A stretch of 64,000 nt of DNA from Pedococcus bigeumensis (GTDB lineage: Bacteria > Actinomycetota > Actinomycetes > Actinomycetales > Dermatophilaceae). The DNA lies in contig NZ_RCZM01000003.1 of assembly GCF_006438965.1 (NCBI RefSeq), forward strand, positions 62,001-126,000. Direction: 5' to 3'. A program made the position numbers and the translations under genes. Shown one piece after another: positions 1,157 through 63,520 of this stretch. The stretch's first letter is position 1, and every line of letters starts with the position of its first letter. The notes below the pieces were generated by a model that worked only from the letters and a program-made list of their open reading frames with translations, ran no database searches and was not told the DNA's origin.

Positions 1157-4100
1157 GTGTTTGAGTGGGCTTCCGTGCATCTGATGAAGGAAGATCACTG
1201 GGTGCAGGATCCGCAGACTCGCGACCTCGGTGCCGTCGGCGATACGTCCGGCCTCGGCGACCGCCTGGACCCAGGCGACCTCAGCCGATGGCTGATCGAG
1301 GCCTCCCCTGACGGCCTGTGGGTGTTCGATGCCGAGGGCAACACGGTGCTCGGCAACGCGCGGTTGGCAGAGATGCTGGGTCGCACGGCCGCGGAGATGG
1401 AGGGGCTGTCCGTCTTCGAGACCCTCGACGAGACCGGACAGGCGCAGTTCGCCGACCACCTGCGTGGGCTCGAGTCCACCAGCGAGCCCGGCAGCAACCT
1501 CGAGTGCAGCCTGCTGCGCAAGGACGGCGAGCGGTTCTGGGCGCTGGTCAGCCACAGCCCCATCAAGGACGACGACGGCAACCACGTCGGCTGGTTGCAC
1601 CGTGTCACCGAGTACAGCCAGCAGCGGCGTCTGATCGACACCCTGCAACGCCGCGAGGCGCAGCTCGCCGAGGCTCAGCACATCGCCAAGATCGGCAGCT
1701 GGGAGTGGGACGTCGTCAGCGACGTCGTGTCGTGGTCCGACGAGCTGTACCGCATCTACGGCCTCGAGCCCGGCACGGACTTCGCGCCGAACTACCAGGG
1801 GTTCCTCGACCGGATGCACCCCGACGACCGGGACGGCGTCGAAGCCGCCATCACCCGCGCCCTAGAGGAGACCGACGAGTTCGTCTTCGACGCCCGGATC
1901 TCCCGGAAGGACGGGTCGCTGGCGTGGATCCGCGGCCGGGGCCGGGTCGCCAGGGACGAGACCGGTGCGGTGGCACGCATGGGTGGCACGTCGCAGGACA
2001 TCACCGAGACCAAGGACGCCGAGCAGGCGTTGGCACTGCTGACCTCGATGGCGACCGCGGCCAACGAGGCGACCACCCTGGCCGAGGTCATCCCCAAGAT
2101 CCTCCTGGACGTGGCGCGGCATACCGGATGGCAGCCGGTGGCTGTCTGGTTGGTCAACGCCGACGGCGACCTCGAACCCTTCCCCGGTGAGACGCGAGAC
2201 GTGCCGGAGCAGGACCTCGCCGAGGCGACCCGGATCGCCCACGAGGCGGTCGAGTCGCACGGCCTGAGCGCGTCGCTGACCACGGAGGGCACCAGCCTCG
2301 TCGCGGCGCCGGTCGTGGCCGGAGAGCGCGTTGCCTGCGTCATCGTCATGGACACCCGCGCCAACACCGCGCCGACCGACTCCGACGGGCTGACCGTGGG
2401 TCGGGCCACCGCGATCTTCGCCCGCGTCGCCGAGCGTGAGCTGGCCGCGGAGCGTCTCGAGCAGGCCCGCGACAAGGCGATGAGTGCGTCGATGGCCAAG
2501 TCAGAGTTCCTCGCGACGATGAGCCACGAGATCCGGACCCCGCTCAACGGCGTGATCGGGCTGTCGGAGCTGTTGGGGCGGACCGAGCTCACCGCTCACC
2601 AGAAAAGGCTTGCCGACGGCATCGACGGGGCGGGCCGCAGCCTGCTGTCGCTGGTCAACGACATCCTCGACCTGTCCAAGATCGAGGCCGGGCGGCTCGA
2701 CCTCGAAGCCGTGGACTTCGACCCGCGCGCCATCGTCGAGCAGAGCACCACGATGATGGCCGAGCGCGCCCGCGCCAAGGACCTCGAGCTCGCTGTGACC
2801 TGCCACCCCGACGTCCCTGCCGCCGTGAGCGGTGACCCGGTCCGGTTCGGCCAGGTGATCTCCAACCTCACCTCCAACGCGGTCAAGTTCACCACCAGCG
2901 GCGAGGTCGTCGTCCGCGCGATGCTCGAGACCATCGAGGAGCCCAGCCAGTCCGGCTCCTCCGACGCGTCCGGCTCCTCCGAGGCGTCCGGCTCCTCCGA
3001 CGCGTCCGGCGAACGCCGCGAGCCCGGGGAGGCAGAAACCTCGGGCAGCTCCGACGGCGGCGGCATCGTCCTGCGCGTCGAGGTCAGCGACACCGGCTCC
3101 GGCATGACCGCCGAGGTCCAGGAACGGCTGTTCACCGCGTTCTCCCAAGGCGACAGCTCCACGACCCGCGAGTACGGCGGCACCGGTCTCGGTCTGGCCA
3201 TCAGCCGCCAGATCGTCGAGGCGATGGGCGGCGAGATCGGGGTCAACAGCGAACCGGGGTCCGGGAGCACCTTCTGGTTCACCGCCCGGTTCGCCCCGGC
3301 GACCGAGACCGAGCGTGAGCAGCCGCCGCTGCCGGCGGTGGAGGGTCTGCACATCCTGGTCGTCGACGACAACGAGACCAACCGGTTCATCCTCGAGGAG
3401 CAGCTCGCCGGCTGGCGGATCGAAGCGGCCCTCGCCTCCTCGGGCGTCGAAGGCCTCGGCCTCCTCGACGACGCCCACCGCAAGGGCACACCCTTCGACG
3501 TCGTGCTGCTCGACTACGTCATGCCCGGCGTCAACGGCGAGCAGTTCGCCCGGATGGTGCGCGGCGACGGCCGGTTCGGCGACACCCGGATCATCCTGCT
3601 CACCTCCGCGATGGACCTCGACCCGACCGTCCTGACCGCCGCCGGCATCGACGTGTCGCTCACCAAGCCGGTGCTGCCGTCCAGCCTGCTCGACACCCTC
3701 GCCAACGTGGCAGGGGACCGGGCCGAGTCCCAGCCCGCCGCGGCGGTCGGCCGACTCGACCGCATCCCGATCGGCACCCGCGGCCGGATCCTCGTCGTGG
3801 AGGACAACGAGGTGAACCAGCTGGTGGCGGTCGGCATCCTCGAGAGCCTCGGGTATGCCGTGGACGTCGCCGAGAACGGGCTGGCCGGCTACTACTCGTT
3901 CCAGTCCGCCGACGGGAACTACGACGCCGTCCTGATGGACTGCCAGATGCCGCAGATGGACGGCTATGACGCGACTCGCATGATCCGCTCGTTCGAGGAC
4001 GACCAGTACCGCACCCCGATCATCGCGATGACCGCGGCAGCGATCGCCGGCGAGCGCGAGCGGTGCCTCGAGTCGGGGATGGACGACTTCCTCACCAAAC

Positions 4101-4573
4101 CGGTCGACGTGACGCTGCTGCGCGAGACCCTGGACCGCTGGGTCCCTGCCGACGGCGGCCACGGGACCGAGGCCGAAGCCACGAGCAGCCGGCGGCTCGC
4201 GGCCCGCGCCGACACCACGGTGCTGGACCCGTCGCGCCTCGAGGAGCTGCTCGACCTCGACCCCGGCGACCCCACCATGCTGCTCCGGTTCATCGACAGG
4301 TTCGGCCCCAACGCCCGGGCCACCCTGGCGACCATGCGCGACCACCGCGTGGCAGGTGCGGCGCACGAGCTGAGCCGTGCGGCGCACGGCCTCAAGGGCA
4401 GCGCCGCCAACCTGGGAGCGGCGCGACTCGCCGAGCTCTGCGCGGACGTCGAGCACCAGGGCGAGGACGGCGTGGTGGTCGACCAACCGGCGCTGGTGGC
4501 GGTCGAACGAGCGCTGGACGCAGCAGTGCGAGCCCTCGAGTCGTTCGCCGTCACCCTCCGACGTCTGACCTGA
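1157..4573 (+). CDS. Hybrid sensor histidine kinase with two receivers and HPt
   Basis: 1138 residues form a complete phosphorelay on one chain. Approximate order: PAS 43-155, PAS/PAC 177-290, GAF-like 295-435, dimerisation/phosphoacceptor domain with His457 in SEFLATMSHEIRTPL, ATPase 560-715 (DTGSGM and GGTGLGLAIS boxes), receiver 1 at 730-850 (phospho-Asp in LLDYVMPG), receiver 2 at 875-1000 (VLMDCQMPQMDG, Lys in FLTKPVD), and HPt 1035-1135 (His in AAHGLKGSAAN). There is no transmembrane segment, so it should sense a cytoplasmic signal. The GTG at 1157 is used; ATG at 1184 is an alternative. The ATPase domain carries an unusual Ser-rich insert encoded by tandem 18-bp repeats. No dedicated output regulator is adjacent. 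Confidence 0.93.
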   Translation: MFEWASVHLMKEDHWVQDPQTRDLGAVGDTSGLGDRLDPGDLSRWLIEASPDGLWVFDAEGNTVLGNARLAEMLGRTAAEMEGLSVFETLDETGQAQFADHLRGLESTSEPGSNLECSLLRKDGERFWALVSHSPIKDDDGNHVGWLHRVTEYSQQRRLIDTLQRREAQLAEAQHIAKIGSWEWDVVSDVVSWSDELYRIYGLEPGTDFAPNYQGFLDRMHPDDRDGVEAAITRALEETDEFVFDARISRKDGSLAWIRGRGRVARDETGAVARMGGTSQDITETKDAEQALALLTSMATAANEATTLAEVIPKILLDVARHTGWQPVAVWLVNADGDLEPFPGETRDVPEQDLAEATRIAHEAVESHGLSASLTTEGTSLVAAPVVAGERVACVIVMDTRANTAPTDSDGLTVGRATAIFARVAERELAAERLEQARDKAMSASMAKSEFLATMSHEIRTPLNGVIGLSELLGRTELTAHQKRLADGIDGAGRSLLSLVNDILDLSKIEAGRLDLEAVDFDPRAIVEQSTTMMAERARAKDLELAVTCHPDVPAAVSGDPVRFGQVISNLTSNAVKFTTSGEVVVRAMLETIEEPSQSGSSDASGSSEASGSSDASGERREPGEAETSGSSDGGGIVLRVEVSDTGSGMTAEVQERLFTAFSQGDSSTTREYGGTGLGLAISRQIVEAMGGEIGVNSEPGSGSTFWFTARFAPATETEREQPPLPAVEGLHILVVDDNETNRFILEEQLAGWRIEAALASSGVEGLGLLDDAHRKGTPFDVVLLDYVMPGVNGEQFARMVRGDGRFGDTRIILLTSAMDLDPTVLTAAGIDVSLTKPVLPSSLLDTLANVAGDRAESQPAAAVGRLDRIPIGTRGRILVVEDNEVNQLVAVGILESLGYAVDVAENGLAGYYSFQSADGNYDAVLMDCQMPQMDGYDATRMIRSFEDDQYRTPIIAMTAAAIAGERERCLESGMDDFLTKPVDVTLLRETLDRWVPADGGHGTEAEATSSRRLAARADTTVLDPSRLEELLDLDPGDPTMLLRFIDRFGPNARATLATMRDHRVAGAAHELSRAAHGLKGSAANLGAARLAELCADVEHQGEDGVVVDQPALVAVERALDAAVRALESFAVTLRRLT
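2951..3004 (+). repeat. Three 18-bp tandem repeats inside the kinase ATPase domain
   Basis: Three consecutive copies of TCCGGCTCCTCCGACGCG (the middle copy has GAG for GAC) encode SGSSDA/SGSSEA units between the VVVRAMLETIEE strand and IVLRVEVSDTGSGM. The whole insert covers about residues 598-636. Such an exact repeat suggests recent slippage growth, and the copy number may vary between strains. Confidence 0.9.
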
Positions 4574-4612
4574 ACGCCGCACGGGCAGCCCGGAGCCACC
4601 GGCACACCCGAA

Positions 4613-5151: not shown

Positions 5152-5546
5152 TGGGGCTCCAAAGGGGGTGAGAGGTCTACCCCTTGATGGAAGCGTGGAT
5201 TTCGCCTTCAGAACATTAACTTTAACAAGCCTTGACCATTGGGTCGGCTGTTCGGTGGAGCGCCCATCCGCCTAAAGTTCAACGCCTCAAAACGGCATAA
5301 ACCACCCTCCCGAATGCCGTTCCGGCACGTCGACTGGACGGCTCCAGGAAGCGGGCACGCGGCATACCGGTGCCTGGAGGATTGCCCCTGCGCGGGCGCG
5401 ACAAAGCGGCGCAAACCAGGTCCGCGCGGAGTGGCCGTGCGAGAGGGGCGGAGAGGCGCGTTGTGCCCTGCGATGACACGCGCCGTCAGTGGTACCGCCT
5501 GTTGCGCGCCGGGCCCTGCTCCCGACGCGCTGGTCCTGAGGTGACG
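5152..5546. other. Intergenic region with few features
   Basis: About 395 bp between two minus-strand genes. The part at 5195-5300 is distinctly richer in A and T than its surroundings and is the likely promoter of the HTH gene downstream on the minus strand. One copy of the GGCATACC word is at 5361-5368. Two exact TGACGTCA palindromes at 5542-5549 and 5552-5559, one helical turn apart, straddle the bldC stop codon. I find no convincing gene or structured RNA here. Confidence 0.5.
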
Positions 5547-9090: not shown

Positions 9091-9638
9091 CTGGTCGCCC
9101 CTGGTTCGTGGCGATCGACATGCAGCGGGTCTTCGGCGACCCCTCCAGCGCCTGGTGCGCTCCCCGGTATGCCGCGGCCGCGACCAACGTGGTCCGGCTC
9201 GCGTCCCGCTTCGGTGACCGCGCGGTCTTCACCCGCTTCGTGGCACCGGCCGAGCCGACCGGGGCGTGGGTGCCGTACTACGAGGACTTCCCGTGGGCTC
9301 TTCAGCCGGCGGACAGCCGGCTGTACGAGCTGACCGACGATATCGCGGCCCAGGCGCAGACCACGGTCGCGGCCACGACGTTCGGCAAGTGGACCGCAGA
9401 CCTGCGGGCGGTGGTCGGCGAGCAGCCGACGCTCGTCGTGGCCGGGGTGGCGACCGACTGCTGTGTCGTGTCAACGGTTCTGGCTGCGGCCGATGCTGGT
9501 GCGTCGATCACTGTGGTGACCGACGCCTGCGCCGGGTCGACGGACGACAACCACCAGAAGGCCGTGGACGTGATGGCCCTCTACGGACCGCTGGTCACGT
9601 TGGCGAGCACCGCAGAGGTACTCGCCAACCTCGCGTGA
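9087..9638 (+). CDS. Isochorismatase-family cysteine hydrolase
   Basis: 183 residues with the Asp-Lys-Cys triad of the family: Asp in FVAIDMQRVF near residue 10, Lys in TTFGKWTADL near 95, and Cys in VAGVATDCCVVST near 118, preceded by the non-proline cis-peptide region. Members hydrolyse nicotinamide, N-carbamoylated amides, ureidoacrylate or isochorismate. The GTG at 9087 overlaps the permease stop and follows AGGAGG at 9074-9079. Pairing with an NCS1 permease suggests a nucleobase-breakdown amide or nicotinamide as substrate; this is inference. Confidence 0.85.
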   Translation: MTGRPWFVAIDMQRVFGDPSSAWCAPRYAAAATNVVRLASRFGDRAVFTRFVAPAEPTGAWVPYYEDFPWALQPADSRLYELTDDIAAQAQTTVAATTFGKWTADLRAVVGEQPTLVVAGVATDCCVVSTVLAAADAGASITVVTDACAGSTDDNHQKAVDVMALYGPLVTLASTAEVLANLA

Positions 9639-9666: not shown

Positions 9667-10167
9667 CTAGAACCCGCCGCCGGCCCAGGGCTGCACCGCC
9701 ATGGCATGGCTGTTGGCCAACGCCTTGGCCTCGGCACCCGCGTCCTCGAGCCTGGTCGTCTGCGGAGCACCGCCCTGGTCCACCCCCACGTAGGCGGGCT
9801 CCGGGTCGACACCGTCCCACGCGGCATACCCGGCGAAGCGGCCGAACATGGCCTCCGACTGGTTGACCGCCGAGGCGAGGGAGCGCAGCGTGGTCGGCTC
9901 ACAGGAGTCGAGAAAGCCGCGCGGGTTGCGACGCTCGCCGATGCTGACCAGACGAGCCACGGCAGCCGTGTCACCGGGGCCGAGTCGCTGCCCCGACACC
10001 AGCCCGTCCTGCACCGCCGTCAGGACGTGGGCACGAGCCCCTTCGGTGAGGCGGTCGAGCGCCTCGTGGTGAGCGGCCTGCAGCGCGTCCAGCGGCGCGG
10101 TGCGGAGCAGGAAGCGGTACTGCCGGACCGTCTGGTCCTCCGACGCACGATCAGCGTTGTTCCCCAT
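9667..10167 (-). CDS. Hypothetical protein, tandem paralogue 1 of 3
   Basis: 166 residues of a family I cannot name. After a short N-terminus comes TVRQYRFLLRTAPLDALQAA, then AHVLTAVQDGLVSGQRLGPGD, RLVSIGERRNPRGFLDSC, MFGRFAGYAAWDGVDPEP and a Gly-rich tail. No signal peptide or membrane segment; it is predicted soluble and mostly helical. The same blocks in the same order occur in the next two minus-strand genes, so the three arose by tandem duplication. The start ATG at 10167 gives a 14-residue lead before the conserved block. Confidence 0.8.
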   Translation of the reverse strand: MGNNADRASEDQTVRQYRFLLRTAPLDALQAAHHEALDRLTEGARAHVLTAVQDGLVSGQRLGPGDTAAVARLVSIGERRNPRGFLDSCEPTTLRSLASAVNQSEAMFGRFAGYAAWDGVDPEPAYVGVDQGGAPQTTRLEDAGAEAKALANSHAMAVQPWAGGGF

Positions 10168-10759: not shown

Positions 10760-11251
10760 TCAGTGGCCACCGAAGGCGGTGTCCGGCGAGCTCGGCCCGC
10801 CCGCGAAGTTGCGGTAGAGCACGTGCGCCACCAGGGCGTCGTGCCAGTGCTCACCGAACCCGCCGTCGACCCACTCACCACCTTCGGTGAGCTCGGGTTC
10901 GGCACCGTCCCACGCGGCATACCCACCGAACCGGCCGAACATCGCCTCGGCGACGATGACCGCCTCCGCGAGGGGCAGTAGCACAGTCGCGGAGCAGGCA
11001 CCCAGGAACTCACCCGGGCGGCGCCGCTCCCCCAGCGCGACGAGGTGGGCGATCGGTCGGACGTCGTCGGGCGACAGGCGCAGGCCCGCGACCAGACCGT
11101 CCTGCACGGCGCGCAGCACCATCGAGCGGCGGGACCGCGCCATCGGTGCGAGGACCTCGACATGCGCCTCCTCGAGGGCGTCGAGCGGGGCGGTACGCAG
11201 CAGGAAGCGGTACTGGCGCACCGACTGGTCCTCGCGCGATGGAGCCCACAC
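10760..11251 (-). CDS. Hypothetical protein, tandem paralogue 3 of 3
   Basis: 163 residues from the GTG at 11251. It contains SVRQYRFLLRTAPLDALEEA, MVLRAVQDGLVAGLRLSPDDV, HLVALGERRRPGEFLGACSA and MFGRFGGYAAWDGAEPEL, aligning over its full length with paralogue 1. The open frame continues upstream to 11590 as Arg-rich sequence overlapping other genes, which I discount. The ribosome binding site is weak. The C-terminus (HDALVAHVLYRNFAGG) is longer than in copy 2. Function is unknown; expression as one minus-strand unit with copies 1 and 2 is plausible. Confidence 0.75.
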   Translation of the reverse strand: MWAPSREDQSVRQYRFLLRTAPLDALEEAHVEVLAPMARSRRSMVLRAVQDGLVAGLRLSPDDVRPIAHLVALGERRRPGEFLGACSATVLLPLAEAVIVAEAMFGRFGGYAAWDGAEPELTEGGEWVDGGFGEHWHDALVAHVLYRNFAGGPSSPDTAFGGH

Positions 11252-11474: not shown

Positions 11475-12590
11475 TCAGCTGGTGGGGTGGTCCCCGACCA
11501 GCTGCACCGCGCCGCCTTCGACGCCCTTGGCGCCGCGGACCACCTCGTGGCCACCGTCCACCGGCGCGTCCTCGGCTCCCGTGACCGCACCGATCACCCA
11601 TGCAGGTATGCCGCGCCCCTCGAGCTCGCGGGTGGCGGCGTCGACCTGGTCGGCGGGGAGCATCGCCACGAAGCCGACGCCCATGTTGAGGGTGCGTTCG
11701 AGGTCGGCGCGGGGCACCTGGCCGAGGGCGCCGATCGTGGAGAACACCGCGGGCGGCGTCCAGGTCGAGCGGTCGAGCCGGGCGAAGACGTTGGGCGGCA
11801 GCACGCGAGCGAGGTTGGCGACGAGCCCGCCGCCGGTCACGTGGGAGAGGGCGTGCAGGTCGATGCCATCGGTGCGGATCAGGTCGAGGAGATCTGCTGA
11901 GTAGACCCGGGTCGGCGTGAGGAGCTCCTCGCCGAGGGTCTGGCCGAACTCCTCGACATGGCGGTCCAGCTGCCAGCCGGCCGCGCCAATCACCTTGCGC
12001 ACCAACGAGTATCCGTTGGAGTGCAGACCGCTAGAGCCGAGCGCCAGGACCACGTCGCCGGCGACCACGCGGTCGGGACCCAGCACGTCGGCATACTCCA
12101 CGACACCGGTGGCGGCACCCGCCACGTCGTACTCGTCGGGTTCCAGCAGCCCGGGGTGCTCGGCGGTCTCGCCACCCACGAGGGCGACCCGAGCCTGCTC
12201 GCAGGCGGCGGCGATGCCGGACACGATCGCGGCGATCCGCTCGGGCACGACCTTGCCCGTGGCGATGTAGTCGGTCATGAAGAGCGGTTCGGCTCCACAC
12301 ACCACGATGTCGTCGACGACCATGCCGACGAGGTCGAACCCGATCGTGTCGTGCCGGTCGAGCGCCTGCGCGATCGCGACCTTGGTCCCGACGCCGTCGG
12401 TGCTCGTCGCGAGGACGGGGCGGCTCATCCGCGCGATCGCCGAGGCGTCGAACATCCCGGCGAACCCGCCCAGACCCCCCAGGACTTCGGGACGGGTGGC
12501 CCGGCGCACCGAGGCCTTCATGAGCTCGACGGCCTTGTCACCGGCCTCGACGTCGACACCGGCGGAGGCATAGGTGATCGGCTCGCTCAC
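11475..12590 (-). CDS. purM: Phosphoribosylformylglycinamidine cyclo-ligase (AIR synthetase)
   Basis: 371 residues, full length. It closes the imidazole ring, converting FGAM and ATP to AIR in step five of purine synthesis. Family marks are YASAGVDVEAGDKAVELMK at the N-terminus, LGGFAGMFDAS, TDGVGTKVAIAQALDRHDTI, the metal/substrate segment GFDLVGMVVDDIVVCGAEP, VGGETAEHPGLL, GLHSNGYSLVRKV and HVTGGGLVANLARVLP. It lies immediately downstream of purF (48-bp gap), the standard actinobacterial purF-purM order, and is probably co-transcribed with it. Confidence 0.97.
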   Translation of the reverse strand: MSEPITYASAGVDVEAGDKAVELMKASVRRATRPEVLGGLGGFAGMFDASAIARMSRPVLATSTDGVGTKVAIAQALDRHDTIGFDLVGMVVDDIVVCGAEPLFMTDYIATGKVVPERIAAIVSGIAAACEQARVALVGGETAEHPGLLEPDEYDVAGAATGVVEYADVLGPDRVVAGDVVLALGSSGLHSNGYSLVRKVIGAAGWQLDRHVEEFGQTLGEELLTPTRVYSADLLDLIRTDGIDLHALSHVTGGGLVANLARVLPPNVFARLDRSTWTPPAVFSTIGALGQVPRADLERTLNMGVGFVAMLPADQVDAATRELEGRGIPAWVIGAVTGAEDAPVDGGHEVVRGAKGVEGGAVQLVGDHPTS

Positions 12591-12638: not shown

Positions 12639-14198
12639 TCAGGGGCGGGTGAGGGCGTCCTCGGCGCCGCCGCGCACGCCGAACGAGACGCCGTCCACGT
12701 CGACGTCGCCCGAGCCGAGGTCGATCGGCAGGGTCTCGAAGAGGTTCTTGCCGAGCCGGCTCACGTCGGGCAGCTCGACCGGGTAGGAACCGGTGAAGCA
12801 GGCGGTGCAGAGGTTGGCCTTCGGCTGGTGGGTGGCCGAGACCATGCCCTCCTCGGAGATGTAGCCGAGCGAGTCGGCGCCGATCGAGGTGGCGATCTCC
12901 TCGACCGCGGCCCCGGTGGCGATCAGCTCCGCCCGGGTCGGGAAGTCGATGCCGAAGAAGCAGGGCCACTTGACCGGTGGAGCGGAGATCCGCAGGTGGA
13001 CCTCGGCGGCCCCGGCCTCGCGCAGCATGCGGACCACCGCGCGCTGGGTGTTGCCGCGCACGATGGTGTCGTCCACGACCACCAGCCGCTTGCCCTTGAT
13101 GACCTCGCGCAGTGGGTTGAGCTTGAGCCGGATCCCGAGCTGGCGGATGGTCTGGGACGGGGCGATGAAGGTGCGCCCGACGTAGGAGTTCTTGACCAGC
13201 CCCTGGCCGTAGGGGATGCCGGACTCCTGGGCGTAGCCGATCGCGGCCGGCGTCCCCGACTCGGGCGTCGGCATGACCATGTCGGCTTCGACCGGGTGCT
13301 CCCGGGCCAGGATCCGGCCCATCTCGACCCGGGCCTCGTGGACGCCGCGACCGTTGATCGTGGTGTCGGGGCGGGCCAGGTAGACGTACTCGAAGACGCA
13401 ACCGCTGGGCTTGGCCTCCGCGAACCGCTGCGAACGTAGGCCGTCCTCGTCGATGGCGACCATCTCGCCGGGCTCGATCTCGCGGATCAGCGAGGCGCCG
13501 ACGATGTCGAGCGCCGCGGTCTCCGAGGCCACCACCCAGCCACGCTCGAGTCGCCCGAGGACGAGCGGACGGAAGCCCTGGGGGTCGCGCGCGGCATACA
13601 GGGTGGTCTCGTCCATGAAGACGAAGCAGAAGGCGCCGTGCAGCTTGGGCAGGATGTCGAGCGCGGCAGCCTCGAGGGAGCGGTCGGGGTCGTCCGCGAG
13701 CAGGGCGGTGACCAGGGCGGTGTCGGTGGTGTTGCCCCGCAGCACCTCGCTGCCGCTGCTGCCGTAGCCGTCGGCCGCCCGCTCGGCCATCAGCTCGCGC
13801 AGCTCGGCCGAGTTGGTGAGGTTGCCGTTGTGGGCCAGGGCGACCGTGGACTCGGCGTGCCCTCCGAGGGTGGGCTGGGCGTTCTCCCAGGTGGAGCCCC
13901 CGGTCGTGGAGTAGCGGCAGTGCCCGACAGCCAGGTGTCCGCGCAGCGAGGCGAGCGATCGCTCGTTGAAGACCTGCGACACCAGCCCCATGTCCTTGTA
14001 GACCAGGATCGAGCGCCCGTCGGAGGTCGCGATCCCTGCCGACTCCTGCCCACGGTGCTGCAGGGCGTAGAGCCCGTAGTACGTCAGCTTGGCGACGTCC
14101 TCCCCTGGGGCCCAGACACCGAAGACCCCGCAGGCGTCCTGCGGGCCCTTCTCGCCGGGAAGCAGATCATGCGAGAGCTGTCCGTCGCCGCGTGCCAC
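12639..14198 (-). CDS. purF: Amidophosphoribosyltransferase (first step of purine synthesis)
   Basis: 519 residues from the GTG at 14198. It makes 5-phosphoribosylamine from PRPP and glutamine. The N-terminal propeptide of 22 residues precedes the Ntn nucleophile Cys23 (DACGVFGVWAPG), followed by HRGQESAGIATSD. The PRPP loop VVVDDTIVRGNT is near residue 355. Cysteines in CFFGIDFPT and NLCTACFTGSYP fit the 4Fe-4S-bearing, Bacillus-type class that is processed at the propeptide. It is the first gene of the purF-purM pair. Feedback inhibition by purine nucleotides is known for the family. Confidence 0.97.
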   Translation of the reverse strand: MARGDGQLSHDLLPGEKGPQDACGVFGVWAPGEDVAKLTYYGLYALQHRGQESAGIATSDGRSILVYKDMGLVSQVFNERSLASLRGHLAVGHCRYSTTGGSTWENAQPTLGGHAESTVALAHNGNLTNSAELRELMAERAADGYGSSGSEVLRGNTTDTALVTALLADDPDRSLEAAALDILPKLHGAFCFVFMDETTLYAARDPQGFRPLVLGRLERGWVVASETAALDIVGASLIREIEPGEMVAIDEDGLRSQRFAEAKPSGCVFEYVYLARPDTTINGRGVHEARVEMGRILAREHPVEADMVMPTPESGTPAAIGYAQESGIPYGQGLVKNSYVGRTFIAPSQTIRQLGIRLKLNPLREVIKGKRLVVVDDTIVRGNTQRAVVRMLREAGAAEVHLRISAPPVKWPCFFGIDFPTRAELIATGAAVEEIATSIGADSLGYISEEGMVSATHQPKANLCTACFTGSYPVELPDVSRLGKNLFETLPIDLGSGDVDVDGVSFGVRGGAEDALTRP

Positions 14199-18549: not shown

Positions 18550-18563
18550 CCGAACCCACAGCA

Positions 18564-18606
18564 GACTGAGGCGGACCCTGGACACGGACCGGGGCCCGCC
18601 TCAGTC
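18564..18606. terminator. Bidirectional terminator between rskA and the LLM gene
   Basis: GACTGAGGCGG at 18564-18574 and CCGCCTCAGTC at 18596-18606 are perfect 11-bp arms around a 21-nt loop. It lies 14 bp past the rskA stop and 58 bp past the convergent minus-strand gene's stop. Confidence 0.8.
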
Positions 18607-18664
18607 ATGTCCGCGGGTCCAACGACGCTGTGCGCGACCGCTCGCGATGGACGCTGGGGCTCGG

Positions 18665-19528: not shown

Positions 19529-19537
19529 GCAGGGAGC

Positions 19538-19566
19538 GTATGCCGCGTGGTGACCACGCGGCATAC
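19538..19566. repeat. 29-bp perfect palindrome built on GTATGCC/GGCATAC
   Basis: Arms GTATGCCGCGTGGT (19538-19551) and ACCACGCGGCATAC (19553-19566) around a single G. It sits between two divergent start codons. The two halves are inverted copies of the word that is over-represented across the window. It could serve as an operator for both genes or be one of a dispersed repeat family. Confidence 0.85.
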
Positions 19567-19597
19567 CCCTGCCTGTCCGCGTGGCAGGCTGGGAGGC

Positions 19598-24870: not shown

Positions 24871-27167
<2,297 letters not shown>

Positions 27168-36267: not shown

Positions 36268-38205
<1,938 letters not shown>

Positions 38206-40465: not shown

Positions 40466-41494
<1,029 letters not shown>

Positions 41495-48812: not shown

Positions 48813-48889
48813 CCGGGTGGTTGTCGTCCACAGGCTGCTCTCAGGTGAGGATTCGGGCGCGGGCGGGCACCCGGCATACCCTTGACGCC

Positions 48890-49589: not shown

Positions 49590-50897
49590 TCACCTCCCCT
49601 GTTGGAAGTGAACCTTCCGGAGATCCGGTGGTTCTGGCACGGACTCACGGGCTGCCTGGACCGCCGGCGCGTCTCCAGGAGCTCGCAGTGCGCCGATGCG
49701 GTGCAGTGACCAACCGGCCCAGCACGCCACCGCAACCCCGCAGCACCCGGCCACCACGAACGAGCCCCTGGGTCCGATCGTCGAGGCGCCTACCCCGCCC
49801 AGACCCAGCGCAAGCATCGTGCAGGTCCTGGCCATCCCGTTGACGACGGCGAGCGCCTTGCCCCGGTCGCCCGGTGCGGTGCGACGCATGAAGACGGCGA
49901 ACAGCGCGGCGTTGCTCACGGCGTTGGCCAACCCGAGCGCTGCACCGAACCCGAACAGCCAGGCGAGCGTCGGTGCCAGTCCCGAGCCGACCTGGGCCAG
50001 CGACATGGCCACCAGCGCGACGACGAGGGCGCGCAGCCTCGTCGGGTCGGCGCGCAGGACTCCCGCCGCGACAGCTCCCAAGACCGCACCCACCCCGGTC
50101 AGCGCCTGCCAGTAGCCGAACTGCGCCTGTGTGGCGTGCAGCTCGTCGCGGGCGAGGAACACCTCCACCGCGTTCATGCTCTCGAGGCTCACGACGAACG
50201 GCAGCATCGCGCACACCAGCACCCACACCACCCGATCGGCGCGGACCACCGCCAGTCCGGCCCGCGGGAGGAACGACACGGCTGCTCGGGTCGCGTCATC
50301 GCGCCGGGCCGCCGTTCGGCCGTTGCCCGCCACTCGCGTCCGGACGGCCAACCCCGCGACGAGCAGCACGGCACACGTGGCGGCATCGAGGACGAAGACG
50401 ACGGAGTCCCCGCGCAGCTCGACGAGCACGCCGCCCAGTGCTGCCCCGATGGGCGCAGCCACGGCGCCCAGCGCCTGCTGGGTCGAGACCAGTCGCCCCA
50501 CGTGGTGGTCGCCCACCGCCCGGGTCAGCACCGACGACCACACCGGGTTGGCGAACGCGAATCCGGTCTGCAACACCACCACCAGCGCGTAGGTCGCGGC
50601 CAGGCCGTTCCACGTCGCCAGGCCCAAGCAGGCCAGCACCTGCACCAGCCCACCTGCGCCGAGGACCAACCGCGGGTCGACGGAGTCCGCCACGTGGCCG
50701 ACCAGCCCCATCGTCACCACGACGGGGAGTGAGAAGCAGACGAGCAGCAACGCCACGGCATACGGGCCGGCGCCGCTGTCGTGGACCCGCAGGGTGAGGG
50801 CCACCATCGCCATGGCGTCACCGAGGAGCGAAACCATCGCGGCCGGCAGTGCCAGTCGCACGTCCCACACTCGGAATATCTGAAACAGTTCCTTCAT
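49590..50897 (-). CDS. MFS transporter next to an ArsR-type regulator
   Basis: 435 residues with 12 predicted helices: VWDVRLALPAAMVSLLGDAM, LLVCFSLPVVVTMGLVGHVA, ALVVVLQTGFAFANPVWSSV, LGAVAAPIGAALGGVLVELR, ESMNAVEVFLARDELHATQA and AALGLANAVSNAALFAVFMR. It is an efflux-type major facilitator resembling enterobactin or macrolide exporters, with the substrate unknown. It is divergent from the ArsR-type regulator, whose operator overlaps both starts. That pairing is common in actinobacteria and usually means repression by the regulator. Confidence 0.87.
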   Translation of the reverse strand: MKELFQIFRVWDVRLALPAAMVSLLGDAMAMVALTLRVHDSGAGPYAVALLLVCFSLPVVVTMGLVGHVADSVDPRLVLGAGGLVQVLACLGLATWNGLAATYALVVVLQTGFAFANPVWSSVLTRAVGDHHVGRLVSTQQALGAVAAPIGAALGGVLVELRGDSVVFVLDAATCAVLLVAGLAVRTRVAGNGRTAARRDDATRAAVSFLPRAGLAVVRADRVVWVLVCAMLPFVVSLESMNAVEVFLARDELHATQAQFGYWQALTGVGAVLGAVAAGVLRADPTRLRALVVALVAMSLAQVGSGLAPTLAWLFGFGAALGLANAVSNAALFAVFMRRTAPGDRGKALAVVNGMARTCTMLALGLGGVGASTIGPRGSFVVAGCCGVAVACWAGWSLHRIGALRAPGDAPAVQAARESVPEPPDLRKVHFQQGR

Positions 50898-50920: not shown

Positions 50921-50947
50921 TCGCCCGTCGTCAACTACGATTCCGGT

Positions 50948-51514
50948 ATGCCGCGGAGCCGGAAACGCACGTCCCTCACCATCGACGACCCCAAGGCGCT
51001 GCGCGCCCTGGCCCACCCGGCACGACAGCGTGTCATCAGCGAGCTGTTCAACGGCGAGGTGCTGACCGCGACCGAGGCGGCCCGGCTCTGCGGGATCACG
51101 CCGTCGGCCATGAGCTACCACCTCCGGGCGCTCGAGCAGTGGGGGATCGTCGAGCGCGACGAGTCCAGCGACGGCCGCGAACGTCCCTGGCGGGCCACGG
51201 CCGACCACTTCACGGTCCCGGCAAGCGCCCACCGCGCGGCGGGCCCGGCGGTGAGCCGCACCTTCATGGTCCCGTGGGCCACCGAGCTCCAGGCGGGGAT
51301 CGAGCGCGCGGCCGACGACCTCGCCGACGGCGCCCGCGACGAGTTCACGACCTTGAGCCGCGGCCGGGTCTGGCTCACCAGCGCAGAGGCCAAGCAGCTC
51401 GACCGTGACCTTCGGTCGGTCCTCAAGCCCTACCAGGCACGGACCTCACGCAAGCACCCCGAGGGCGCCGTGGCGCGGGACGGCTACTGGCTGCTGCTCC
51501 CTCCGCCCGGCTGA
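50948..51514 (+). CDS. ArsR/HTH_20-type winged-helix transcriptional regulator
   Basis: 188 residues. The N-terminal winged helix is DDPKALRALAHPARQRVISE, LFNGEVLTATEAARLCGITP, SAMSYHLRALEQWGIVERDE and SSDGRERPWRATADHF, the typical opening of ArsR-like repressors of MFS genes. The C-terminal 100 residues are of no known domain and lack metal-binding cysteines, so the signal is probably an organic ligand. The start ATG at 50948 is inside a GGTATGCC word. Divergent from the MFS gene. Confidence 0.88.
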   Translation: MPRSRKRTSLTIDDPKALRALAHPARQRVISELFNGEVLTATEAARLCGITPSAMSYHLRALEQWGIVERDESSDGRERPWRATADHFTVPASAHRAAGPAVSRTFMVPWATELQAGIERAADDLADGARDEFTTLSRGRVWLTSAEAKQLDRDLRSVLKPYQARTSRKHPEGAVARDGYWLLLPPPG

Positions 51515-51569: not shown

Positions 51570-52217
51570 TCAGAGCTCGATCAGACCGGCCCGGTATGCC
51601 GCGGTGACGGCTGCGGTGCGGTCGGTCACCCCGAGCTTCTCGAAGGCCCGCAGCAGGTGCGTCTTCACCGTCGCCTCCCCGATGTGCAGCTCGCGGCCCA
51701 CCTCGGCGTTGGACAGGCCCTTGGCGACGCACCGCACCACCTCGGTCTCGCGGTCGGTCAGCGTCGGCGGCGCGGGGGCCCGCATCCGGCTGGCCAGCCT
51801 CGCGACGACGGGTGGAGCGAGCACCGTCTCGCCGCGGGCCGCTCGCCGGATCGCGTCGGCCAGCGTCTCGCGGGGCGCGTCCTTCAGCAGGTAGCCGTTG
51901 GCACCAGCCTCCACCGCACGCACGATGTCAGCGTCCGTGTCGTAGGTCGTGAGCACGAGGACTGCCGGGGCGTTCTCGGTCGCCCGCATCTTGGCGGTGG
52001 CGTCGGCTCCGTCCATGACCGGCATCCGCAGGTCCATGAGCACCACGTCCGGATGCAGCCGCGCCGCGAGCACCACCGCTTCGGCGCCGTCGGCGGCCTC
52101 GCCGACGACCTCGAACTCCGCGTGCTCGGACAGCATCGCGACCAGGCCCATGCGCACCACGGGATGGTCGTCGACCACCAACAGCCGCAACGTCATCGGG
52201 CCCCTTTCGCCGTTCAT
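51570..52217 (-). CDS. NarL/LuxR-family response regulator
   Basis: 215 residues. The receiver domain starts LRLLVVDDHPVVRMGLVAML and has its phospho-Asp in PDVVLMDLRMPVMDGADATA. The LuxR/GerE helix-turn-helix is LTDRETEVVRCVAKGLSNAE and VGRELHIGEATVKTHLLRAF. The ATG at 52217 overlaps the stop of the kinase gene (ATGA), so the two are coupled. It is the last gene of ABC ATPase-permease-kinase-regulator. The likely target is this operon's own promoter. Confidence 0.94.
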   Translation of the reverse strand: MNGERGPMTLRLLVVDDHPVVRMGLVAMLSEHAEFEVVGEAADGAEAVVLAARLHPDVVLMDLRMPVMDGADATAKMRATENAPAVLVLTTYDTDADIVRAVEAGANGYLLKDAPRETLADAIRRAARGETVLAPPVVARLASRMRAPAPPTLTDRETEVVRCVAKGLSNAEVGRELHIGEATVKTHLLRAFEKLGVTDRTAAVTAAYRAGLIEL

Positions 52218-53434
52218 CGCGGCACCTCCACCCTCAACCGCGACCCTGATCCAGGCGTGCTGTTCACGTCGAACCGGCCGCCGACCTCGGTGGCCCGGGC
52301 AGTCGCACCGTCGAGCCCATAGCCGCGCGCTTCGGCGCCGGGGTCGAACCCGACCCCGTTGTCGGTGACCACGAGGGCCACCGGCCCGTCCGCGCCATAG
52401 GACAGGGACACCTCGAACGTCGTGGCGCCGGAGTGGCGTCGCACGTTGGCCAGTCCCTCCTGGGCGGTGCGTAGGAGCACCACCTCGGAGTTGGCCGACA
52501 GGACGACCGGCTCCCCCTCGACCCGCAGCGTCCCTGACATCCCGCTCTCCGCCGAGACCGCGTCGACGAGCCGCTGCAACGCCTCGGAGAGGGTGCGCGA
52601 CTGGAGGTGGCCGGGCGTCATCTCGGCGACGATGAGCCGAGCCTCGGAGAGGTTGTCCACGGCCGTCTGCTCGATCATTCGCAGTCGCTCCCGGACGGCG
52701 GCGAGGTCACCGCGGTCCAGCGCCAGCTCGGTCGCTCGCGCCAAGGTCACCACCGAGGTGAAACCCTGCGCAAGGGTGTCGTGGATCTCGCGCGAGATCC
52801 GCTCGCGCTCGCCGGCGACACCCTGCGCGCGCTCGGCCGCAGCGAGCTCGTCCTGGGTGCGCTGCAGCTCGTCGATGGTGCGAGCACGGCTGTCGGCCTC
52901 GCGGATGATGCGGTCGATGAACAGGCCGAGCGTCAACGACAGCACCAGCATGATCACCGTGCTGATCGCGATCCCGATGAACTCGTCAGCGGTGCGCGGA
53001 CCTTGCCACACGCGGACGACCGCGATCCCGACGACGGCAACGGCGACAGTCCCGGCTGCCTTGTTGCGCGGCAGGATCGCCCACGTCTGCGGGAAGAGGC
53101 CGAAGGTCAGGATCCACGCGGTGCCCGTGCCGTCCAACGCCATCAGGACGACCATCAGGCCCCACGCGAGCACCATGTAGGTGATGCCGGCTCGCAGGTC
53201 GCGCTCGCCCATGCCGCGGCGGCCCCAGACGGCATACGCGGCGCCGATGGCGACCACGCACCCCAGCCGCCAGCCGAGGTGCTGCGTGTCCTCCGCGACC
53301 ATCACCACGACGGTCGTCACGACCAGGACGGCGAACAGCCCGTGCCACCAACGCAGCTGGCCGCGCCACATCTCGTTGAGGTCGTCGGCGGACGACCCCG
53401 CTGGAGGGCAGTCGGACGGCAGCTCGGTGCTCAC
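52214..53434 (-). CDS. Membrane histidine kinase (HisKA_3 type)
   Basis: 406 residues. Five to six transmembrane helices (residues 28-175) with no large external sensor: WHGLFAVLVVTTVVVMVAED, TYMVLAWGLMVVLMALDGTG, FIGIAISTVIMLVLSLTLGL. A coiled coil follows, then the phosphoacceptor RERISREIHDTLAQGFTSVV and an ATPase end (AQEGLANVRRHSGATTFEVS, VVTDNGVGFDPGAEARGYGL). NarX/DesK class. Paired with the regulator downstream and the ABC transporter upstream, it probably senses the transporter's substrate, such as a membrane-acting antibiotic. Confidence 0.94.
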   Translation of the reverse strand: MSTELPSDCPPAGSSADDLNEMWRGQLRWWHGLFAVLVVTTVVVMVAEDTQHLGWRLGCVVAIGAAYAVWGRRGMGERDLRAGITYMVLAWGLMVVLMALDGTGTAWILTFGLFPQTWAILPRNKAAGTVAVAVVGIAVVRVWQGPRTADEFIGIAISTVIMLVLSLTLGLFIDRIIREADSRARTIDELQRTQDELAAAERAQGVAGERERISREIHDTLAQGFTSVVTLARATELALDRGDLAAVRERLRMIEQTAVDNLSEARLIVAEMTPGHLQSRTLSEALQRLVDAVSAESGMSGTLRVEGEPVVLSANSEVVLLRTAQEGLANVRRHSGATTFEVSLSYGADGPVALVVTDNGVGFDPGAEARGYGLDGATARATEVGGRFDVNSTPGSGSRLRVEVPR

Positions 53435-54268: not shown

Positions 54269-55179
54269 GGGACGACCTCCAGGTCGGGTACGACGTTGGC
54301 TGTGGCACTAGTGGTGGCGTCGGCGTCGAGGTGCGGCGCGATCAGCGACAGGTAGGTGTCCTCGAGGGAGGGCCTGGTCACCGTCAGCTTGGGGACCTCA
54401 CCGCCCACGCGGGCACTGAGCGAAGAGACGAACTGCGTTGGCGTGCTTGTCTTTTCGGTATGCCGCCTGCCTTGCGCGTCCTCCCACGTCACCGTGGCCT
54501 CCGACGAGGCGCGGCCTCCGAGGTTGGCAGGGGTGTCCAGTGCCAGCATCTTGCCCGCCGCGATGACGCCGACCCGGTCGGCCAGCTGCTCGGCCTCGTC
54601 GAGGTAGTGCGTCGTGAGCAGGATCGTGGTGCCGCCGTCGGCGAGCGAGCCGATCAGCTCCCAGAAGTCGCGGCGCGCCTGTGGGTCGAAGCCGGTGGTC
54701 GGTTCGTCGAGGAAGAGCAGCTCGGGGGTGCCGAGGATGCCCAGGCCGACGTCGAGCCGGCGGCGCTGTCCCCCGCTGAGCTTGCCGATCCGGTCGTCGG
54801 CCTTGTCGACCAGCCCGACAGCGGCCAGGACCTCGTCGACATCTCGTGGCGTGCGGTAGACCTTGGCGGTGCTGGCCAGCGCCTCACGAGGCGTGATCAG
54901 GTCCAGCCCGGTCGAGGACTGCAGCACGATGCCGAGCCGGTTGCGCCAGCCCAGCCCGGCCGACTCGGGGTCCTCGCCGAGGACGCTGACGGTGCCCCCG
55001 TCCCGCTTGCGGAAGCCCTCGAGGATCTCGACGGCCGTCGTCTTGCCGGCGCCGTTCGGACCGAGCAGGGCGAAAACCTCCCCGTGCTCGATCTGCAGGT
55101 CGATGCCGTCGACGGCCTCGCGGTTGCCGTAGGTCTTGCGTAGGCCGGTCACGCGGATGGGTGCCTCTGGTGCTGACAT
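54265..55179 (-). CDS. ABC transporter ATP-binding protein (DrrA/CcmA type)
   Basis: 304 residues. Walker A GPNGAGKT (40-47), signature KLSGGQRRRLDVGLGILGTP near 140, Walker B LLFLDEPTTGFDPQARRDFW, H-loop ILLTTHYLDEAEQLADRVGV. The C-terminal part beyond residue 230 resembles the regulatory tail of DrrA-like ATPases. It powers the permease encoded next. First gene of the four-gene operon. A 20-bp palindrome sits 57 bp upstream of the ATG. Confidence 0.94.
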   Translation of the reverse strand: MSAPEAPIRVTGLRKTYGNREAVDGIDLQIEHGEVFALLGPNGAGKTTAVEILEGFRKRDGGTVSVLGEDPESAGLGWRNRLGIVLQSSTGLDLITPREALASTAKVYRTPRDVDEVLAAVGLVDKADDRIGKLSGGQRRRLDVGLGILGTPELLFLDEPTTGFDPQARRDFWELIGSLADGGTTILLTTHYLDEAEQLADRVGVIAAGKMLALDTPANLGGRASSEATVTWEDAQGRRHTEKTSTPTQFVSSLSARVGGEVPKLTVTRPSLEDTYLSLIAPHLDADATTSATANVVPDLEVVP

Positions 55180-55260: not shown

Positions 55261-56040
55261 CTACTGCTGGCTGGGCGGCGTGTCCTGCGGCGACGGGGCG
55301 GTGGGCGGGGGCTCCACCGAGGGCGCTGCCTCGGGTGCCGGCGCCGCTCCCGTCGGCGCGGGGCCGGCCGCGGTGGCCTCAGCAGGCGAGGGTGCGGCAG
55401 GTTCTGCGGGCGGCGCTGAGGACGGGGCGCCGGCGGGCGTGCCCCCGGCATACCCGCTCGGCGGCGGGATCGTGGCGTCGCGCTGGCCGAAGTCGACCTT
55501 CACCGGGTCGCGCTCCTCGCCCTCGACCTCGAAGTACTCGGCGCGGTCGATGTTGAACAGGCCGGCGACGATGTTGGAGGGGACGGTCTCGACCTTGGTG
55601 TTGAGCTCGCGCACGTTGGCGTTGTAGTAGCGCCGGGCGGCGGCGATGCGGTCCTCGGTCGAGGTGAGCTCCTGCTGGAGCGCCATGAAGTTCTGGTTGG
55701 CCTTGAGGTCGGGGTAGGCCTCGGCGACGGCGATGAGGCGACCGAGCGCCTGGCTCAGCATGCCCTCGCTCTGGGCCTGCTGCACCGGGCTCTGGCCGCC
55801 CGCCATCGCGGCGGACCGGGCCTTCATGACGTCCTCGAGGGTGCCGCGCTCGTGGGCGGCGTAGCCCTTGACCGTCTCGACGAGGTTGCCGATGAGGTCG
55901 TGCCGGCGCTTGAGCTCGACGTCGATCTGGCGCCAGGCCTCCTGCACCAGGTTGCGCAGCTTGATCAGCCCGTTGTAGACGCCGACCGCCCACAGGACGA
56001 GCAGCACGAGCACGACCGCGATGATGATCCAGACCCACAT
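55261..56040 (-). CDS. LemA family protein
   Basis: 259 residues from the ATG at 56040. One N-terminal membrane helix (WVWIIIAVVLVLLVLWAVGV) is followed by the LemA four-helix region: YNGLIKLRNLVQEAWRQIDV, ELKRRHDLIGNLVETVKGYA, AHERGTLEDVMKARSAAMAG, LIAVAEAYPDLKANQNFMAL and RIAAARRYYNANVRELNTKV, ending FNIDRAEYFEV. A tail of about 65 Pro/Ala-rich residues is longer than in most members. Role in the family is unknown. The second of two close ATGs is chosen since AGGGG lies at proper distance from it. Confidence 0.92.
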   Translation of the reverse strand: MWVWIIIAVVLVLLVLWAVGVYNGLIKLRNLVQEAWRQIDVELKRRHDLIGNLVETVKGYAAHERGTLEDVMKARSAAMAGGQSPVQQAQSEGMLSQALGRLIAVAEAYPDLKANQNFMALQQELTSTEDRIAAARRYYNANVRELNTKVETVPSNIVAGLFNIDRAEYFEVEGEERDPVKVDFGQRDATIPPPSGYAGGTPAGAPSSAPPAEPAAPSPAEATAAGPAPTGAAPAPEAAPSVEPPPTAPSPQDTPPSQQ

Positions 56041-56707: not shown

Positions 56708-56804
56708 GGTTCGTCACCCTACCGAGGACTCACCGGCGCGTACTGCGGCCCACGCGGCATACCTCACGCCGGCGCCCAAGGCGGCGCAGGTGCACACTGG
56801 CCGG

Positions 56805-58872: not shown

Positions 58873-58882
58873 GATCCGAGTC

Positions 58883-59773
58883 ATGACCTCCCGCACCTTC
58901 ACCGTCGTCACCACCGACGGAGTGCTGCTCCGGGTTGAGGAGCATGCTGCGGGGCCCACTCCCGAGGGCATCGGCGCCGACCACCCCGGTGGGGTCCCGA
59001 CTGTGGTGCTGGCCCACGGCTGGACGCTCACCCGCGCCTCGTGGCTCCCCGTCGTCGAGCACCTTGGTGCGGCTGGGGTGCGGGTCGTGACTTACGACCA
59101 GCGCGGGCACGGCGAGTCGAGCCCGCTGCGCGACCACCCGACGGTGCGGGTGCTCGGTGACGACCTCGGCGCAGTGCTCGACGTGGTCGCGCCCAGTGGG
59201 CCGGTCGTGCTCGGCGGGCACTCGATGGGCGGGATGACGGTGATGGCGTATGCCGGGCTGCACCCGGATGACTTCCGCTCCCGGGTGGCCGGCACGGTGC
59301 TGGTCGCGACCAGCGCGGGCGAGCTGCAGAACCGCCTCCGGGCGCTCGAGGCCCGCGCAATGTCCTTGGCGGCGCGGATGCCGCGGATCCCGGCGGGCCG
59401 GTTCGTGACCACCCGGGGTCAGCGCCGACTGCTCTTCGGCGCCGACGCCGACCCTGCCCAGGTGGAGCTGACCCGCGACATGGTGGCGAGCACGCCCCTG
59501 CCGACCATGGGGCGCTTCTTCGGAGCCCTCGGCGAGCACGACGAGAGCGAGGCACTGACCCAGCTGGACGGCATACCCACGGTCGTGCTGGTCGGGGACC
59601 GTGACAGGCTCACGCCGCCGGGCCACAGCCAACGGCTCGCCGAGCTGGTCCCGCACGCCGAGCTGCGCATCCTGCCCGGCCGCGGTCACATGCTGATGTA
59701 CGAAGCCACCGACGAGGTCGTCGACGCGTTCCACTCGGTGCTCGACGCCGCGATCCAGCCCGGGGCCCACTGA
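58883..59773 (+). CDS. Alpha/beta hydrolase
   Basis: 296 residues from the ATG at 58883. The fold shows VVLAHGWTLTRASWLPVVEH (oxyanion HGW), VRVVTYDQRGHGESSPLRDH, the nucleophile elbow VVLGGHSMGGMTVMAYAG near residue 116, VVLVGDRDRLTPPGHSQRLA with the Asp, and LRILPGRGHMLMYEATDEVV with the His. It is an esterase or lipase-type enzyme of unspecified substrate. Short spacing from the operator suggests a leader of a few bases or none. Confidence 0.9.
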   Translation: MTSRTFTVVTTDGVLLRVEEHAAGPTPEGIGADHPGGVPTVVLAHGWTLTRASWLPVVEHLGAAGVRVVTYDQRGHGESSPLRDHPTVRVLGDDLGAVLDVVAPSGPVVLGGHSMGGMTVMAYAGLHPDDFRSRVAGTVLVATSAGELQNRLRALEARAMSLAARMPRIPAGRFVTTRGQRRLLFGADADPAQVELTRDMVASTPLPTMGRFFGALGEHDESEALTQLDGIPTVVLVGDRDRLTPPGHSQRLAELVPHAELRILPGRGHMLMYEATDEVVDAFHSVLDAAIQPGAH

Positions 59774-59795
59774 CCGTCAGCCGACAGGGCCAGGG

Positions 59796-62519: not shown

Positions 62520-62626
62520 GGCACCCACGGTAGTCGGAGGGGACTGCTCCCCATGGTCGCAACGCGGCATCCCGCCCTAGCGTTCGAGCGAACCGGCACC
62601 GGCCGGCATACCGAGGGGGACTTCTC

Positions 62627-63463: not shown

Positions 63464-63487
63464 CCGTCCCGCACGCAGCGCACACCG

Positions 63488-63520
63488 AGGTATGCCGGGT
63501 GGTCACCACCTGGCATACCT
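63488..63520. repeat. 33-bp palindrome with paired GGTATGCC/GGCATACC words
   Basis: Arms of 16 bp at 63488-63503 and 63505-63520 around one C, beginning AGGTATGCC and ending GGCATACCT. The single mismatch (G/T) becomes a G-U pair in RNA. It lies between the NlpC gene and the glycerophosphodiesterase gene and could serve as a terminator. It is built like the palindrome at 19538. Confidence 0.85.

Follow-up and report, generated by a model that had tools for sequence, protein, structure and literature searches.

A repeated word in the purA region of Pedococcus bigeumensis

The 64-kb stretch of the Pedococcus bigeumensis genome analysed here (the window), which includes purA, is strewn with copies of a short non-palindromic word, CGGCATAC, whose probable role in DNA uptake is our subject. 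Its core, GCATAC, occurs 50 times (28 on the forward strand and 22 on the reverse); all 50 are part of GGCATAC, 49 are complete copies of CGGCATAC, and 31 have the longer form CGGCATACC. The mean density, both orientations together, is one copy per 1.25 kb, with spacings ranging from 23 to 3805 bases. A first-pass annotation of the window had put the seven-base copies at about 50, divided about equally between the strands, and had listed 32 starts of the eight-base words GGCATACC and GGTATGCC; the number was right, every one of the 32 starts was recovered (19 forward, 13 reverse), and the strand balance extends to the whole genome (see below).

On the forward strand, CGGCATAC lies at 2117-2124, 5360-5367, 9822-9829, 10915-10922, 12089-12096, 13592-13599, 15146-15153, 23449-23456, 26337-26344, 27338-27345, 29074-29081, 30780-30787, 34850-34857, 37527-37534, 41464-41471, 41989-41996, 43522-43529, 47392-47399, 48872-48879, 50756-50763, 53230-53237, 55446-55453, 56755-56762, 59569-59576 and 62604-62611, and also at 38113-38120, where it overlaps the likely start codon of purA on the opposite strand (if purA begins MPAIVLVG). 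Reverse-strand copies are at 3853-3860, 9167-9174, 11606-11613, 14616-14623, 15840-15847, 21039-21046, 21695-21702, 23107-23114, 25960-25967, 28169-28176, 31561-31568, 34134-34141, 40243-40250, 41708-41715, 45391-45398, 47924-47931, 51594-51601, 54458-54465 and 59248-59255, together with one at 50946-50953 that overlaps the start codon of a predicted gene at 50948. The earlier statement that three start codons fall inside the word thus stands, with the proviso just given, for purA.

The remaining copies form two inward-facing pairs. The first (19538-19566: reverse copy 19538-19545, forward copy 19559-19566) gives, with its flanks, a predicted hairpin of -35.6 kcal/mol, and is within a predicted open reading frame (ORF; 18446-20644) that may be spurious. 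In the second (63490-63519; -38.8 kcal/mol with flanks), CGGCATAC at 63490-63497 on the reverse strand faces TGGCATAC at 63511-63518 on the forward strand, the latter being the sole copy of the 50 without the preceding C. This pair is situated 27 bases behind the end of a predicted gene, and overlaps the edge of another predicted ORF.

How far does this exceed chance? Markov models of order 1, 2 and 3 predict 0.9, 1.2 and 2.1 copies of CGGCATAC in the window, and models of order 4 and 5 predict 10.7 and 31.6. Because GCATAC exists in the window solely within GGCATAC, the order 4 and 5 models absorb the motif itself, and order 5-6, which the first-pass annotation had named as a check that might account for the count, is therefore an unfair null. 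A ranking of words under the maximal-order Markov model was dropped for masking the motif, whose sub-words occur almost only within it, and was replaced by lower orders and by codon shuffling.

High-GC genomes are rich in codon-driven words, so the possibility has to be considered that this one is a by-product of codon usage, of mutation bias or of a dispersed repeat element. Against this, 300 synonymous shuffles of the predicted genes of the window gave a mean of 2.1 coding copies (standard deviation 1.4, maximum 6), compared with the 41 present. The coding copies use every reading frame, as had been claimed, but not about equally, 30 of the 41 being in the two frames that give Tyr-Ala or Ala-Tyr. 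Moreover, the aligned flanks outside the word carry little information (weak preferences only, chiefly for a C at the fourth base ahead of GCATAC and for another behind it), so that the unit seems to be approximately CGCGGCATACC rather than any longer repeat. Copies are also denser outside predicted genes (1.09 per kb) than inside them (0.60 per kb), as judged from ten stretches of 20 kb on one contig, the stretch around the gene for ComEC, and the window; for these rates, and for the hairpin positions given below, genes were predicted by a simple GC-by-position caller.

Strand balance, hairpins and mobile DNA in the host genome

The excess is genome-wide: the 4.22-Mb host genome (G000) contains 1431 copies of CGGCATACC (719 and 712 on the two strands), whereas the reversed word, used as a control, occurs five times, always on the same strand. 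CGGCATAC also outscores every other 8-mer in 347 kb sampled beyond the window, with 161 copies against 6.2 (order 2) or 8.5 (order 3) expected. In this it resembles uptake sequences, which are short, exact, non-palindromic words present far above chance across whole genomes.

The equal use of both strands, with no polarity along the chromosome, is a further feature expected of an uptake sequence. It is seen not only in the genome totals but also locally: in the 16 of 24 blocks that have at least five copies, the strand split is 99 to 96 (heterogeneity p = 0.996). A polar recombination or segregation signal, of the kind represented by Chi or the FtsK-orienting polar sequences (KOPS), would likewise be short and exact, but no strand bias of that type was found either genome-wide or among the 16 blocks, and the even strand use argues against it, as the first-pass annotation had reasoned. 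We consider such a signal most improbable.

In 411 kb there are seven inward pairs, in which GTATGCCG is followed by CGGCATAC no more than 60 bases away, and one outward pair. Inclusion of the pair at 63490-63519, with its one mismatch in the second arm, brings the inward pairs to eight, with predicted folds of -21 to -50 kcal/mol. Five of these are not inside predicted genes: the distance from a predicted gene end to the pair behind it is 13 to 85 bases for four of them, while the fifth, at 14 bases from one gene's end, also reaches into the start side of a second gene. Inward, hairpin-forming pairs near gene ends are again characteristic of uptake sequences.

Recently acquired DNA appears to be poor in the word, as an uptake sequence would be, although this rests on a small sample from one genome, with the denser stretches of that genome as the baseline. 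Four small contigs (36.8 kb) have two copies against the 24 expected; among ten of their proteins tested were IS3- and IS110-type transposases, a helicase fragment and the product of a type ISP restriction gene. Where genes of the copper and zinc resistance type are found, one stretch has two copies against 13 expected. We also draw attention to 14 kb of contig C3 of the same genome (L023), motif-free, in which genes for a type ISP restriction-modification protein, a PLD-domain helicase and an HEPN_Swt1 protein make up what looks like a defence cluster.

These observations bear on the idea that selection maintains the word because a nucleoid-associated protein, or one that organises the chromosome, binds to it. 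The density of copies in both orientations and the even strand use would suit such a role, but the range of spacing in the window would not, nor would the near absence of the word from the mobile contigs. Its absence from entire genera and its shifts in spelling (next section) would also be odd for a core chromosome function. We therefore regard this explanation as improbable.

Dialects within the host family

All 11 genomes of the host genus carry the word (322 to 2085 copies of CGGCATACC, the reversed word numbering 2 to 40). Across the host family (186 genomes of 53 genera) the distribution is patchy, with from 2 to 2198 copies of CGGCATACC: 128 of the genomes were scored as positive for the word or a one-letter variant and 58 as negative, and 15 of the 53 genera were without the word in all sampled genomes. 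For this purpose, thresholds were applied by eye to count tables for all 186 genomes, irrespective of completeness. For the host spelling (the A word), a positive score needed a count of 75 or more and double that of the reversed word; the alternative was at least 200 for the G word or 500 for the C word (variants introduced below), each at three times the reversed word. On this basis, 12 genomes of genus g46 were scored as negative despite a mildly raised G word (and C word in G153 and G158). Raised numbers of the control itself, the reversed word CCATACGGC, were seen in one genome of genus g4 (G019) and three of g14 (G040, G041 and G042), at 84 to 118 copies.

In an unbiased survey of 8-mers, using 40 kb from each of 30 genomes of the family, CGGCATAC scored highest in eight of the ten motif-rich genomes; its rank was 3 in G135 and 8 in G043. 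Among the 20 CGGCATAC-poor genomes, five had a one-letter variant as top 8-mer: CGGCGTAC, the G word, in G100, G025 and G012, and CGGCATCC, the C word, in G178 and G027. No variant was the top word in the other 15, though there were weaker rises (for example, CGGCGTAC at rank 19 in G094). By whole-genome counts, which bear out both variants in particular genera, genomes of the G dialect (G012, G013, G014, G022, G023, G025, G094, G098, G099 and G100) have 212 to 896 copies of CGGCGTACC, with 32 to 109 of the reversed word; those of the C dialect (G027, G028, G044-G047 and G178) have 968 to 2347 copies of CGGCATCCG, with 72 to 198 of the reversed word. Two spellings occur together in G009, G014, G046 and G047.

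Like the host word, the variants exceed what synonymous shuffling predicts: 31 against 7.2 (G100), 29 against 5.4 (G099) and 29 against 6.4 (G025) for the G word, and 27 against 6.3 (G178), 18 against 3.2 (G027) and 49 against 6.1 (G044) for the C word. Of two presumed negatives, G062 showed no rise, and in G153 the C word was raised (23 against 7.7). The codon null for CGGCATCC can be sizeable, reaching 13.5 in the Microbacterium set described later, and to that extent favours the by-product explanation considered above; but the excesses listed here, added to those in the window, leave that explanation barely credible.

An alignment of the DNA of 37 ComEC or Tad loci from 32 genomes allowed individual sites to be compared, with the reservation that in all the resulting counts one ancestral site may be met via several genomes, so that events are not independent. 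Between A-dialect genomes, the A spelling was retained in 700 of 1269 site pairs, 14% being expected from flank identity. When 86 A sites were aligned to four G-dialect genomes, none had A, and 42 had CGGCGTAC in one or more of them; in the opposite direction, of 31 sites taken from G genomes, 12 showed CGGCATAC in some A genome. In motif-poor genomes, none of 45 pairs retained A, and two showed CGGCGTAC. Within a single genus, G094 has the G word and its relatives G095 and G096 the A word, and six of 14 aligned site pairs differ by exactly that letter. Thus CGGCGTAC and CGGCATCC, which replace CGGCATAC in some genera, behave as dialects, and dialects among related species are a known attribute of uptake sequences. 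The codon null, the conservation of sites above that of their flanks and the concerted one-letter changes between genera support selection or drive on the DNA word itself, in line with the DNA-level selection put forward in the first-pass annotation.

In 40 kb of G043 (genus g14; L159 and L160), the 8-mers CGCCATAC (25 copies, first) and CGTCATAC (18, third) accompany CGGCATAC (15) and CGACATAC (11); with its third position relaxed, this is perhaps a further dialect, CGNCATAC.

A probable DNA uptake sequence and its possible machinery

An exact word, balanced between the strands and scarce in foreign DNA, is part of the known signature of uptake sequences. Dialects and inverted pairs are described for those of Neisseriaceae (PMC3630211). 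Since the host word is exact, evenly divided between the strands, paired in hairpins, rare in foreign DNA and split into dialects that change in concert, we recognize that signature here, and infer the function from it: of the possibilities originally raised (uptake, methylation, nucleoid protein binding and repair), an uptake sequence seems to fit best, and it is quite likely, judging from sequence comparisons, that the word, with CGGCATAC as its core and about CGCGGCATACC as its fuller form, is the DNA uptake sequence of a natural-competence system.

Methylation is the main rival, though like nucleoid binding it is less favoured than uptake. An orphan methyltransferase might modify the word, the sites serving regulation, replication or repair, as has been discussed for the cyanobacterial highly iterated palindrome HIP1, which is likewise eight bases long and abundant in genomes, and has a published relation to methyltransferases (PMC4390886). 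Altered methyltransferase specificity could also produce dialects. However, the host word is not a palindrome as HIP1 is, its inward pairs form hairpins of a kind reported for uptake sequences (PMC3630211), and methylation by itself would provide no obvious drive towards thousands of sites. We rate this alternative as unlikely, though less so than the others discussed.

If the word is an uptake sequence, a surface DNA receptor of the competence system would bind it as a tag, and tagged DNA would enter the cell, and recombine with the chromosome, in preference to other DNA; many repetitions of this biased cycle would spread the tag, and maintain it wherever proteins tolerate it. The reader of the word would then be the uptake receptor, and a shift in receptor specificity, followed by the tags of the genome, would give rise to dialects such as CGGCGTAC and CGGCATCC.

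What might the uptake machine be? The known actinobacterial transformation machine comprises ComEA/ComEC and Flp/Tad pili, the latter being required for transformation in the actinobacterium Micrococcus luteus (PMC4322843, PMC6370729), and for this reason we propose that the uptake sequence is read by a Tad-pilus competence system, in which a Tad/Flp-type pilus would act with ComEA and ComEC. In the host genome, ComEA (with SLBB and helix-hairpin-helix domains) adjoins ComEC. Type IVa pili are unsupported as the machine, PilT being found in just three of the 186 family genomes (E 1e-60). The ComEC family is nearly universal (180 of 186), as is the Tad ATPase (183 of 186, with several paralogues), and both are also found in motif-negative genomes, so neither the presence of ComEC nor the total count of Tad ATPases discriminates. 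One ATPase paralogue (TadA3) does better, and its locus, with the ATPase at C1:440132-441397 of the host genome, may be the Tad locus in use. It encodes two T2SSF membrane proteins, two TadE-like proteins, an FHA-FtsK protein and, where the Flp pilin would normally be encoded, a protein of 69 residues that matches no Pfam family.

TadA3 was present in all ten motif-positive genomes checked by score group and in six of 12 negatives (with a partial copy in G074). At E 1e-110 it was found in 161 of the 186 genomes, those without a match being 16 of the 58 negatives and nine of the 128 positives (Fisher p = 3e-4, relatedness uncorrected), and in 47 of the 53 genera, the six genera without it all being motif-negative (p = 2e-4, relatedness uncorrected). 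Five TadA3-less genomes were assigned by elimination, consistently with a piecewise search. No Tad-locus gene stood out as exclusive to motif-positive genomes among 16 loci, in a search using a gene finder that is poor on short pilin genes. In the motif-negative G159, the TadA3 match is split into two pieces about 4 kb apart (C1:2044070-2049269), and in the motif-negative G103 it is a 70-residue remnant with a stop (C3:538795-539004).

Several observations weigh against an uptake sequence read by this system. The TadA3 statistics treat genera and genomes as independent points, which in a phylogeny they are not, and a non-uptake trait lost along with Tad would yield the same association. TadA3 is present in 42 of the 58 motif-negative genomes, and is therefore at best necessary. 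Of the nine motif-positive genomes without a match at 1e-110, five (G083, G084, G131, G134 and G140) have pieces of TadA3, 64-79% identical, reflecting broken genes or alignment breaks; the other four (G111, G128, G132 and G181) have no match above 43% identity, the listed completeness being 100% for G128 and 68 to 75% for the rest. Three of the eight hairpin pairs, including the window pair at 19538, are inside predicted genes, and the low-density stretches L021 and L026 (four copies each) are not clearly mobile. Finally, the shared-site signal is weak for the C dialect: in two C-dialect genomes, none of 63 sites retains A and six show CGGCATCC.

To our knowledge, uptake sequences are described for Neisseriaceae and Pasteurellaceae, both Gram-negative, and the present system, if it is one, would be the first in Gram-positive bacteria. 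We found no published report of an uptake tag in the host group among the leading matches from open-licence PubMed Central, which does not cover most subscription papers and preprints. Sequence-selective DNA uptake would then have arisen also with another kind of pilus, in these actinobacteria that are mostly without PilT. The word would flag naturally transformable members among these little-studied bacteria, and its addition to DNA could make the harmless ones genetically tractable. Dialect switches and losses would allow receptor discovery by comparison, and the differences in dialect within genera (g33, g15 and g1) would make co-evolution of receptor and tag directly testable.

The word beyond the host family

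Elsewhere in the order, CGGCATACC reaches at most 61 copies in the 273 genomes sampled, which represent 19 families. The idea that the word is confined to one family nevertheless holds for CGGCATACC only, since CGGCATCC is present in Microbacterium and Agromyces. All 80 named purA loci among the matches listed were counted for words, and 73 (as 22 sets by name) were ranked over all 8-mers, the seven omitted being L027, L046, L073, L098, L099, L105 and L106. In the Microbacterium set (L056, L060 and L101; 64 kb), CGGCATCC is the top 8-mer (81 copies against 7.8, or 65 against 13.5 under the codon null), with one copy per 0.8 kb, and TGGCATCC is likewise raised. In Agromyces (L042, L043 and L072), CGGCATCC ranks third (41 against 7.9; codon null, 32 against 9.5), at one per 1.6 kb. 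In Nocardioides, CGGCGTAC ranks ninth (21 against 2.9; codon null, 21 against 5.5). The remaining named sets showed smaller rises or none. In family f19, CGGCATCC is raised in G221 (22 against 4.2) and weakly so in G205 (19 against 9.2), the stretch from G205 being the only one with a dialect word among its top ranks (of 20 stretches drawn from the order's other families, 16 were long enough to test). No Microbacterium phages with host DNA were listed by a search made for them.

Some loci are locally uneven in their use of the strands (23 to 8 in L228, 11 to 1 in L043, 2 to 8 in L227), making the sense of the word less sure here than in the host family. We nevertheless think it an even choice whether uptake sequences of the form CGGC[A/G]T[A/C]C, read by Tad/Flp systems, make up a family that extends across the class Actinomycetes, with CGGCATCC in Microbacterium and Agromyces, CGGCGTAC in some Nocardioides and CGGCATAC in most of the host family; its history would then have included repeated dialect switches and losses.

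Three further observations were made in these surveys. In the Nocardioides loci L035 and L100, TTTCGAGAC and GGTTGAGGA are also far above chance, in what looks like a dispersed repeat element. In 20 kb from family f14 (L219, G198), the cyanobacterial HIP1 word, GCGATCGC, is the top 8-mer, with 30 copies against 6.8 when both strands are counted, which amounts to 15 places. Lastly, L099, from a record labelled Vibrio cholerae strain 35D (contig00008), encodes a PurA 68% identical to the host protein, which suggests contamination of the assembly.

Comparison with known systems

The DNA uptake sequence (DUS) of Neisseriaceae is non-palindromic and occurs on both strands, properties shared by the host word. 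Both are short exact words present in very high numbers, and DUS too has inverted pairs capable of forming stem-loops, and dialects that follow branches of the family (PMC3630211). The differences are that the word itself is another one, that the hosts here are high-GC Gram-positive organisms in which PilT is rare, and that Tad/Flp pili are proposed in place of the type IVa pili of Neisseriaceae, with no ComP-like receptor known. The uptake signal sequence (USS) of Pasteurellaceae, linked to competence (PMC2346458), is comparable in its hundreds to thousands of copies, but is an unrelated word from an unrelated phylum; its own receptor is a predicted one (PMC12616744). HIP1 has in common with the host word its eight bases and its high genomic frequency, but differs in being palindromic and in having two orphan methyltransferases, for which its inner parts are the recognition sites (PMC4390886). 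As to M. luteus, the term 'uptake sequence' is absent from the main text of one of the relevant papers (0 occurrences in PMC4322843), and the likeness is one of machinery, in that actinobacterial ComEA/ComEC together with Tad pili form the uptake machine there (PMC4322843, PMC6370729), as we propose that they may in the host family.

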